In this document: positions 17,102-20,881 of the stretch, one piece after another
Position numbering within the stretch: the first letter of the stretch is position 1
Layout: each line of letters opens with the position of its first letter
Assembly (NCBI GenBank): GCA_902797085.1
Contig: CADBRM010000029.1
Location: 1-35,948, forward strand
Direction: 5' to 3'
DNA: 35,948 nt
From: an uncultured Methanobacteriaceae archaeon
Lineage (GTDB): Archaea > Methanobacteriota > Methanobacteria > Methanobacteriales > Methanobacteriaceae
Notes under the pieces: generated by a model
Told to the model about the DNA's origin: nothing
The model's input: only the letters and a program-made list of their open reading frames with translations
Database searches by the model: none
Program-made: the position numbers and the translations under genes

Positions 17102-18037
17102 ATGTCTATATTAACGATTATCCTATTGTTGGTTGGATTTTTCTTCCTGATTAAGGGTGCGGATTTGTTTGTTGAAGGAGCTAGTGATCTGGCCACTAAG
17201 CTAAAGATTCCGTCAATGATTATTGGATTAACGATAGTTGCTTTCGGTACCAGTGCCCCTGAAGCGGCCGTTTCCATATCTTCCGCCCTTAGCGGAAGTA
17301 ATGCTATTGCCGTCAGCAATGTTGTTGGTAGTAACATATTCAATCTTTTAGCCGTTATAGGTATTACTGCCGTAATGTATAAAATTGACATTACTTCAGA
17401 GTCCTTAAAACAGGACTTTCCCATATTGCTGGGCAGCAGCCTATTACTATTATTGTTCATATTTACAGGTAATGAAATTAGCAGAGTTGAAGGTATCATA
17501 CTGTTAATTTTAATTATTGCTTATGTTACATTCCTTATATTTAAAGCTAGAAAGCAAAGCAGCAAAATGCCTGTAGGTACAACTCATTTAACGCCTGCCA
17601 GAATTGGAATTTATATCATAATAGGTATAATAGGTATAGTGCTTGGTGGAAATCTTGTAGTGGAATCTGCAAAGAATATAGCACTAAGCTTAGGAATGAG
17701 TGAAACATTAGTAGGATTAACAATAGTGTCCATAGGAACCAGTTTGCCAGAACTGATAACCAGTGTAACAGCAGCATTAAACAAGAAAACTGACATAGCC
17801 ATAGGTAACGCTATTGGAAGCAACATATTTAACGTACTGCTGATTCTTGGATTGACAGACTCAATATGCCCGATTGCAACAACAAATGTCATGATAATCG
17901 ATACGATAATAATGATTGTCATAACAATAATCACATACATCCTAGCATACGACAAACATGACTTCAATAGAAAAGACGGATGCATACTTGTAGGACTATT
18001 CATAGCATACATGATTTACATCATATTAAGAAACTAA
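17102..18037 (+). CDS. Calcium/sodium antiporter, CaCA superfamily (YrbG-like)
   Basis: This 311-residue membrane protein has about ten helices and the two inverted alpha repeats of cation/Ca2+ exchangers: GLTIVAFGTSAPE (residues 42-54) with GSNIFN (76-81), and a second copy with GLTIVSIGTSLPE and GSNIFN in the C-terminal half (about 199-245). The acidic residues in the PE motifs bind the cations. Archaeal members swap Ca2+ for Na+ (or H+), like the structurally known NCX_Mj. The start ATG 17102 is six bases after the ornithine cyclodeaminase stop, so both share a transcript. A T tract (18051-18057) after the stop is a likely terminator. Confidence 0.9.
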   Translation: MSILTIILLLVGFFFLIKGADLFVEGASDLATKLKIPSMIIGLTIVAFGTSAPEAAVSISSALSGSNAIAVSNVVGSNIFNLLAVIGITAVMYKIDITSESLKQDFPILLGSSLLLLLFIFTGNEISRVEGIILLILIIAYVTFLIFKARKQSSKMPVGTTHLTPARIGIYIIIGIIGIVLGGNLVVESAKNIALSLGMSETLVGLTIVSIGTSLPELITSVTAALNKKTDIAIGNAIGSNIFNVLLILGLTDSICPIATTNVMIIDTIIMIVITIITYILAYDKHDFNRKDGCILVGLFIAYMIYIILRN

Positions 18038-18151
18038 CCTCCCACAACTCTTTTTTTAAATACAACGCAAACTGCCATACTAAACAAAATTTTTATTAAA
18101 GATTAAACAAATAACTATATTCTTAAGAAAAAAAAGAAGAGGTGACCCCAT

Positions 18152-20881
18152 ATTCATAATCAAATAAATATAAAAAAGATTATCCTCCTGCTTGTAATAT
18201 TTTTATTACTACTATGTATCTCCAGCGTATCTGCTTCAGACAATTCCACAAACGGCATATACGATACCCCCAACAATACAACAACAGATTGCATGAATAG
18301 GGAAATAGGCGACAATATCCATGAAATTACAAAAAATACCGACACAAGCATACCTACAAAAAGCAGCACTGAAAACAGCAAAAATACCGTTTACGTCAGC
18401 ACCAATGGAAAAGACACCAACAGCGGAACCCTAAGCAATCCAAAGGCAACAATAAAAAATGCATTTGAAAATGTTGCCAACGGAGGTACCATCTATCTTG
18501 GCAGTGGAACTTACACGGAATACGGAATTAATTTAAATAAGAATGTAAACATTATAGGTAACGGTACAAAAACAACAATAATAAACAGCAAAAAGAAACA
18601 TACATTCACAGTCAATGCCAACGTATTATTAAAAGCATTTACAATAACGGATGCCCATGAAAAGAACAATGGTGGCGCAATATACAATAAAGGCACATTA
18701 ACCATGGAAGGAATTAAAATCCAATCATCTTCAGCATCAAATAGCGGAGGGGCAATTTATAACAAAGGAACACTTAAAGCAACAAAAAGTGCATTCTGCA
18801 GCAATAACGCACAAACGGGCGGAGCAATATACAACAGAGGAAGTTTATCCCTTAATCGATGCACATTTGATAAAAACACCGCAGCCATGGGAAGCTCCCT
18901 CTATTCTACCGGAAAAATAACTGTCAACGGATGTAACTATACAAATAACATTAATTCAGCAATATACATACAGAACAAAAATTCAAATACCATAAGGGTA
19001 TCATCTTTCATTTCAAATACCGGAAACAATGGAGGAGCAATCAACAGCATTAATTCAACGCTCACCCTAGAAAAGACATACTTCGAAAACAACATTGCAA
19101 AAAATAATGGAGGTGCCCTATACTCCACCGGAAACACCATACTAAACATTTGTACATTTACCAAGAACTCTGCAAACAACGGAGGAGCAGTAGTCTCCAG
19201 CAGCGGATTAACAGTCACCAATTCATCAATAAAATACAATAAAGCAAACAACCATGGTGGAGCAATATACAATAAAAACAGCAAAATTACAATAGCCAAT
19301 ACAAAATTCAACAGCAATTCGGCCAACAATGGTGGAGCAATAAGCACTACCAGTAACTCCATTGTAAAATTATCAATTGAAAATTCAGAATTCAACAACA
19401 ACAATGCTACTGCAGGAGGAGCAATATTTGCTTACAATAAAACACAGCTAGACATAAAAAACAGCTTCTTTAACAACAACAAAGGCAGTGCAGTATACGT
19501 TAAAACTTCTGCACAGAACAACCTAATTTACAGCAGCAGATTCACTAAAAACTCCGGAACATACGGAGGAGCAGTAAGAAATTATTATTCAACACTGATA
19601 ATGAACAGGAACTATATATCAGCAAACAGTGCAACATACGGAGGAGCCATATTCAGTTCAAAAGCCCTTTCAACATTAACCTACAACATCATAATCAACA
19701 ATGGAGGAAACGACATATACAACAATCCAGGAACTGTAACTGCAAATTACAACTGGTGGGGATCAAATGATAAAGTAGCATCAAACAGAATACACAAAAC
19801 CACGGTAAATAATTGGCTATACATGACATTGTCCACAGATAACAATGCAAAAGTAAATGAAAGGGTCAATGCAGTAGTATCATTATACAACGTATATAAC
19901 GGAAGTACCCTAACAAGCATAACAAACAAAAACCTGCTGTGTGACATCAATATGAATATAAAAGTAAACGGATGTGGAATAACAAACACCCGTGATACCA
20001 CCAACCAGGGATATTACTCATTCACAACAAACTTTACAAAAGAGGGAACGGCAAGCATAACTGCCAAAATCTCATCGCAACTGCTGACGAAAAACATAAA
20101 AATCAGCAACGAATTACTGCCGGGCAAAATTACTTCAGTATTTGTTAGAATAGGATATGCCGTTACATCATATGATGTACAAAAATGGATAAGATCCGAT
20201 ATAATTGACGTTTACATTGAAACAAGTGCCGCACACAATAAGACTGAAAACCTGAGAAATGTAATCAAATTATGTAAAAATACAAAAATACGGGTTCATG
20301 CTTGGGTAATCTGTCTAAAAAATGAGAACGGATTTGATATCAGTGCAACCAGACAGAATTTAGTAAAAAATTTCGTAAATTATACCATGAGAATTAATGG
20401 AATCAGTGGAATTTGTCTGGATTACATACGCTATAGTGGAACAAAAGCCAATGTTGACTCAACAAAGATTACAAACTTTGTTAAATCAGTCCACAACATC
20501 ATAAAAAGTTATAACAAAAATCTGATAGTTTCAGGAACAGTATTTCCAGAAAAAGAGGGGACTCTAACATATTATGGTCAAGATTATGCTGCCTTAAGCC
20601 CATATCTTGATGTGATGATGCCTATGGCATATAAATATGATTATAAAGAAGGTACTGCCTGGCTAAAAAGTGTTACTTCATATGTAGTCAAAAGAGCAGT
20701 TTACAGTAAAGTTGTAACTGTTCTTCAAACATATAAAACTTCAGGCGGAACCAGCACGGAACTATCAAAATCAGAACTTGAAAATGATGCCAGAGCCGTA
20801 ATGTCAGTCGGATCATATGGTTATTCATTATTCCGTTACGGATTAATAAGTTCCTATCCTACAGCATCACCCAAATTATAA
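18152..20881 (+). CDS. Secreted beta-helix surface protein with a C-terminal glycoside-hydrolase-like TIM barrel (ATT start)
   Basis: About 909 residues. The frame upstream of the first ATG (18293) encodes a perfect signal peptide: a short basic start ending INIKK, then a run of about 16 hydrophobic residues and VSAS as the cleavage site. A GAGGTGA ribosome binding site at 18139-18145 lies six bases before an ATT codon at 18152, the only initiation-like codon there. Residues about 79-130 are a DUF1565-type start (YVSTNGKDTNSG). Up to about 530 follow many GGAIYN/GGALYS repeats of a right-handed beta-helix, closed by NWWG. An Ig-like stretch (about 545-650) precedes a domain at about 653-909 with GICLDYIRYSG, DVMMPMAYKYD and YGYSLFRYG, resembling GHL10/DUF4015-type putative glycosidase barrels. 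No C-terminal membrane anchor is present. The ligand and substrate are unknown. Confidence 0.75.
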   Translation: MHNQINIKKIILLLVIFLLLLCISSVSASDNSTNGIYDTPNNTTTDCMNREIGDNIHEITKNTDTSIPTKSSTENSKNTVYVSTNGKDTNSGTLSNPKATIKNAFENVANGGTIYLGSGTYTEYGINLNKNVNIIGNGTKTTIINSKKKHTFTVNANVLLKAFTITDAHEKNNGGAIYNKGTLTMEGIKIQSSSASNSGGAIYNKGTLKATKSAFCSNNAQTGGAIYNRGSLSLNRCTFDKNTAAMGSSLYSTGKITVNGCNYTNNINSAIYIQNKNSNTIRVSSFISNTGNNGGAINSINSTLTLEKTYFENNIAKNNGGALYSTGNTILNICTFTKNSANNGGAVVSSSGLTVTNSSIKYNKANNHGGAIYNKNSKITIANTKFNSNSANNGGAISTTSNSIVKLSIENSEFNNNNATAGGAIFAYNKTQLDIKNSFFNNNKGSAVYVKTSAQNNLIYSSRFTKNSGTYGGAVRNYYSTLIMNRNYISANSATYGGAIFSSKALSTLTYNIIINNGGNDIYNNPGTVTANYNWWGSNDKVASNRIHKTTVNNWLYMTLSTDNNAKVNERVNAVVSLYNVYNGSTLTSITNKNLLCDINMNIKVNGCGITNTRDTTNQGYYSFTTNFTKEGTASITAKISSQLLTKNIKISNELLPGKITSVFVRIGYAVTSYDVQKWIRSDIIDVYIETSAAHNKTENLRNVIKLCKNTKIRVHAWVICLKNENGFDISATRQNLVKNFVNYTMRINGISGICLDYIRYSGTKANVDSTKITNFVKSVHNIIKSYNKNLIVSGTVFPEKEGTLTYYGQDYAALSPYLDVMMPMAYKYDYKEGTAWLKSVTSYVVKRAVYSKVVTVLQTYKTSGGTSTELSKSELENDARAVMSVGSYGYSLFRYGLISSYPTASPKL

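Follow-up and report, generated by a model that had tools for sequence, protein, structure and literature searches.

Sequence evidence for AUU, AUC and AUA start codons behind strong Shine-Dalgarno sequences in Methanosphaera

Is a large surface protein of a gut-dwelling archaeal methanogen translated from an AUU codon, or does the ATT at the head of its reading frame mark a gene that has been switched off? In bacteria, a few genes are known to have non-NTG start codons. The question arises from the window analysed here, a 35,948-nucleotide stretch of DNA from an uncultured Methanobacteriaceae archaeon, in which an earlier note had pointed to an ATT as the apparent start codon of such a protein and had offered both readings.

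An adhesin-like gene with ATT at its head

The gene lies on the forward strand and opens with a Shine-Dalgarno (SD) sequence, a six-base spacer (CCCCAT, 18146-18151) and ATT at 18152, from which the frame stays open up to the TAA at 20879-20881 and spells 909 residues. The features of the locus are:

17102..18037, + strand: Ca2+/cation-exchanger-like (CaCA) upstream neighbour, in the conserved GAPDH-LOR-CaCA block by which the locus is recognized
18139..18145, + strand: SD sequence GAGGTGA, read directly; 7 nt complementary to the 16S 3' end
18143..18145, + strand: in-frame stop TGA inside the SD, shutting the frame on its upstream side
18152..18154, + strand: putative AUU start codon; ATT or ATC in orthologues, at optimal SD spacing
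18152..18235, + strand: predicted signal peptide IHNQINIKKIILLLVIFLLLLCISSVSA; Met presumably comes first, cleavage site placed by eye
18152..20881, + strand: coding sequence of an adhesin-like surface protein, 909 residues if counted from the AUU; syntenic orthologues
18293..18295, + strand: first in-frame NTG, an ATG at codon 48; not the start, as the signal peptide would go, and not conserved
18359..19741, + strand: beta-helix / PMP-like repeat stalk, bounds approximate (PF13229, PF02415; TIGR01376)
20120..20878, + strand: C-terminal (beta/alpha) barrel, glycoside-hydrolase-like; 57-64% identity among orthologues

Direct reading thus bore out what the earlier note had described, namely the GAGGTGA, the six bases, the ATT and the open frame behind it, the lack of any NTG between the SD and 18293, and the loss of the signal peptide that a start at 18293 would entail, since that ATG sits behind it. 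The reference for the SD match was AGGAGGTGATCC, a general consensus and not this genome's own 16S sequence; matches of at least 7 nt are uncommon (21 of 477 frames). Because the TGA at 18143-18145 lies upstream in the same frame, initiation must fall no earlier than 18146 and before the signal peptide ends. The whole metagenome-assembled genome (MAG, G000) contains 25 instances of the pattern AGGTGA-N6-ATT, against 22 of the reversed control pattern, and only the site with ATT 18152 opens a long frame. RNA structure around the start was unremarkable (z -0.3). Elsewhere in the window, the NAD kinase gene reads AGGTGACTGTACATTG at 1641-1656, where a TTG overlaps an ATT; this is an ordinary TTG start.

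The product carries a signal peptide and beta-helix/PMP-type repeats, the combination that defines an adhesin-like protein (ALP). It shares these features and its character as a large secreted protein with the ALPs of Methanobacteriales, and differs from them in its C-terminal glycoside-hydrolase-like barrel and its apparent AUU start. AlphaFold2 predicts a (beta/alpha) barrel for the C-terminal domain (pLDDT 89.9), GH18 profiles match it (E 9e-5), and Cwp19 gives the best TMq among the listed fold matches (0.78), placing the model with Cwp19/GH18-type barrels. Membership of GH18 itself was considered and rejected: the motif DxxDxDxE is absent and the conserved stretch reads LDYxRYSG, so that the predicted barrel is classed as glycoside-hydrolase-like and no further. 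Among 120 Methanobacteriaceae genomes, no full-length relative was found outside Methanosphaera, and a search of genome contigs returned a single locus, apparently the G002 copy again. The genus name Methanosphaera draws in part on gene content.

Conservation of the start among Methanosphaera orthologues

In most Methanosphaera genomes examined the gene adjoins the 3' side of GAPDH-LOR-CaCA (G016 showed no CaCA frame), and this shared neighbourhood identifies the copies as positional orthologues. At the position of the window's SD they carry GAGGTGAT, and a few nucleotides after an SD stands ATT in 11 genomes and ATC in three further copies (G015, G010b, and G011c). The layout is GAGGTGA-N6-ATT in G000, G017, G003, G002, and G013, GAGGTGA-N4-ATT in G001 and G016, GGAGATGA-N6-ATT in G004, GGTG-N6-ATT in G005 and G008, and GGAGG-N8-ATT in G006. 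A GAGGTG-type SD is present in nine of the 13 aligned copies with an AUH start (AUU, AUC or AUA), the other or weaker SDs being those of G005, G008, G004, and G006. Comparison with other strains, proposed in the earlier note as a search for ATG, thus found ATT or ATC across the genus and ATG at the site in G007 only, behind a weaker SD (GATGTGA) at unchanged spacing. Since the arrangement SD-N4..6-ATT/ATC is kept in syntenic orthologues whose proteins share only 44-54% identity, its retention goes far beyond chance.

The adhesin-like gene is tandemly duplicated in G011 (L044:5735-14314) and G010 (L045:5069-10896). In both, the copy adjoining CaCA retains the SD and ATC; the others (G010a, G011a, and G011b) have no SD and each has its own ATG.

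The alignment of the orthologous signal peptides begins at the ATT/ATC codon itself. Differences between orthologues are distributed as 478/266/618 over codon positions 1/2/3, a coding-sequence pattern which argues that the signal-peptide region is translated. Many orthologues have no NTG for dozens of codons after the ATT or ATC, so that a non-AUG AUN start without an NTG alternative is conserved in the family; in G004, G006, and G016 an additional ATG lies 5-7 codons downstream, and AUU is therefore not forced in those three.

These downstream ATGs lend some colour to the idea that translation starts elsewhere, be it at ATG 18293, at another near-cognate codon nearby (for example ATA 18164 or ATT 18185), or, by way of a frameshift, at a codon in another frame such as the GTG within the SD. 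We consider this unlikely. ATG 18293 is rejected because its use would remove the conserved signal peptide and because the codon itself is not conserved; the other near-cognate codons fall outside the 6-8 nt spacing peak described below, and the short out-of-frame ORFs from the GTG showed no sequence conservation on inspection.

AUH starts in other genes

A blind screen of 750 kb brought to light a second gene, queE. Of the queE genes in 20 Methanosphaera genomes, 18 have ATT or ATC behind an SD (two of these 18 are one codon shorter), one has ACG and one has ATG, whereas all 20 genomes examined from other genera have ATG at the aligned codon. The ACG, in G012 (L127), stands 8 nt after GGAGG at the start position and may itself serve as a start. 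Further sampling and orthologue searches added rnz, nucS, and cbiD. In all six Methanosphaera examined, rnz reads ATT-ATA-GAA where other genomes read ATG-GAA; the ATT is at optimal SD spacing and the ATA is aligned with the relatives' ATG, which places the ATT one codon earlier. For nucS, ATT or (in G003) ATA is found where other Methanobacteriaceae carry ATG, and in cbiD four Methanosphaera species have ATA at a codon that is ATG in G008. As read from these alignments, at least five gene families (the adhesin-like protein, queE, nucS, rnz, and cbiD) use AUU, AUC or AUA in Methanosphaera. The first reading of the earlier note, a true AUU start, thus gains strong support both from conservation across the genus and from independent gene families with the same type of start.

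Additional candidates came up in the same material. A hydrogenase maturation protease has no NTG start in G044 (L250:3844-4410) or in G003 (L200:7620-8120), and so in both genera; an HMGL/homocitrate-synthase-type enzyme of G016 (L233:6834-8018) shows GGGGG-N7-ATC, its first NTG being codon 116, within the catalytic domain; and G016 contributes further adhesin-like proteins.

When AUH candidates were simply counted per gene, Methanosphaera did not stand out from the controls, because weak SD-like matches within coding sequence add noise. The two were separated by a spacing-resolved test together with the orthologue alignments. In a sample of 1.27 Mb of sequence, 20 of the 969 frames from Methanosphaera stretches carried a strong SD core for which there was no usable NTG within 14 nt. 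The in-frame codon 6-8 nt after such SDs was ATT, ATC or ATA in 15/19 cases against a background of 11.7% (p=2.5e-11, a value that overstates independence because the gene families found are partly orthologous), and the enrichment persisted when known orthologues were collapsed (p about 8e-9). At greater distances it vanished, with 2/20 at 9-11 nt and 1/24 at 12-15 nt, and no enrichment beyond 9 nt. The adhesin-like family, with its mostly GAGGTG-type SDs, accordingly combines a strong SD with optimal spacing. In the controls G038 and G044, a small sample of 400 kb, the count at 6-8 nt was 2/4, cases too few for a verdict; a reciprocal-best-hit comparison with control stretches covered too few genes. 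G038 has two candidate ATT starts behind GAGGTG or GGGGG, one in the gene of an adhesin-like protein and the other in a gene of dihydrouridine-synthase type (L242:5599-9006 and L243:14404-15129), and these two suggest that the habit may reach beyond Methanosphaera.

Could a special tRNA or an altered initiation factor have re-assigned AUU and AUC as start codons in this genus? The window's gene family and queE use ATT or ATC and never ATA, though ATA is the commonest Ile codon, as such a re-assignment might predict. "Never AUA" fails as a general rule, however, being broken by cbiD and by nucS of G003. Moreover, G016 has an ordinary complement of tRNAs (three with anticodon CAU, a single Ile-GAU, and an initiator of canonical type), the initiator tRNA of G003 is canonical as well, and aIF1 is single-copy, bears no sign of an indel and has ATG as its own start; in the window's own MAG, which is incomplete, aIF1 was not found. 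Re-assignment therefore strikes us as quite improbable.

The second reading of the earlier note, that a phase-variation-like change from ATG to ATT silences the gene in one strain or leaves it a pseudogene, fared worse. The ATG of G007 would fit it, as would the G001 orthologue (L054:6804-9702), which is interrupted by one in-frame TAG and a frame break and may reflect decay, variability of this copy or misassembly. Across the genus, however, ATT or ATC is the rule, frames of about 840-950 residues are intact, and the signal peptide is under protein-level constraint. AUH starts occur in both deep clades of a GAPDH+LOR tree (outgroup, GAPDH only); from the sequences, AUH is ancestral in the genus and the ATG of G007, the sister of G000, is derived. 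The start has neither a repeat tract prone to slippage nor an inverted repeat or invertible element, and on/off alleles were not found among the orthologues. With no repeats at the start and the allele kept across the genus, we reject phase variation and hold silencing in general to be very improbable. A sequencing or assembly error at 18152 is hardly credible even for a fragmented MAG (143 contigs, 86.8% complete), as the same start recurs in many separate genomes, including the single-contig G008 and G016 and the two-contig G003.

Mechanism, known systems and meaning

We conclude that ATT 18152 is very probably the real start codon and that AUH starts are very probably a stable habit of Methanosphaera. 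This conclusion draws on what the sequences themselves contain: the position of the start, its conservation, its match to the AUG of relatives, and the enrichment at one particular spacing. The strong, optimally spaced GAGGTGA would position the 30S subunit, and the ordinary initiator Met-tRNA (anticodon CAU) would be accepted on AUU through a third-position mismatch that strong SD pairing permits. The protein would then begin with Met and the signal peptide, followed by the beta-helix stalk and the C-terminal barrel. Output is probably low, as the earlier note supposed, for non-AUG codons make weak starts and are selected against by aIF1 in vitro (PMC6237735); initiation at the AUU may depend on this fidelity factor and be under its control.

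Among known systems, infC of bacteria starts with AUU in E. coli and with AUC in Streptomyces, where these codons serve IF3 autoregulation (PMC5472188). As in Methanosphaera, the start is retained over long evolution. Unlike infC, which encodes a fidelity factor that regulates itself, the Methanosphaera genes code for a surface protein and for enzymes of metabolism or of RNA, and their archaeal host has no IF3; autoregulation of the infC kind is not what we see, the product being adhesin-like and aIF1 starting with ATG. The nearest working analogy is the arrangement of Streptomyces sigR, a non-infC gene with a GTC/GTT start, a conserved AGGAGGTG and repression by IF3 (PMC5472188). Its layout appears to be the same, a very strong conserved SD with a conserved non-canonical start, although its GUC is not an AUH codon and it is a bacterial gene whose function was shown experimentally, whereas the Methanosphaera case is known from sequence.

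Other than in infC, AUG-to-AUU switches are almost absent from comparative data. Belinky et al. (2017) found that non-AUG starts accompany stronger SDs and that 1 of 61,358 ancestral AUG starts had changed to AUU (PMC5622118), in a type of survey that depends on annotation which seldom calls AUU. By contrast, sampling roughly one third of a genome was enough to reveal several such switches that hold across Methanosphaera. Non-AUG initiation in archaea has been described as not demonstrated, a 2021 review of archaeal recoding finding non-canonical events demonstrated in elongation and termination only (PMC8211752), and in the open-access literature that we searched we met with no description of archaeal AUH starts that are conserved.

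More broadly, we think it likely that ~1% or more of the genes of Methanosphaera, and perhaps of more Methanobacteriaceae, a figure projected from roughly one third of the sequence of two genomes, have AUU, AUC or AUA starts behind strong SDs, genus-wide where relatives use AUG, that these hold low-abundance proteins low, and that every one of them is misplaced or truncated by standard gene callers. Such starts would point to a start rule overlooked by gene-finding programs, and recognizing them would correct a systematic mis-annotation of N-termini, with its lost signal peptides and truncated queE, nucS, rnz, and cbiD. If the reading holds, this multi-gene AUH set would also provide natural substrates with which to test the part played by aIF1 in start-codon choice in living archaea.
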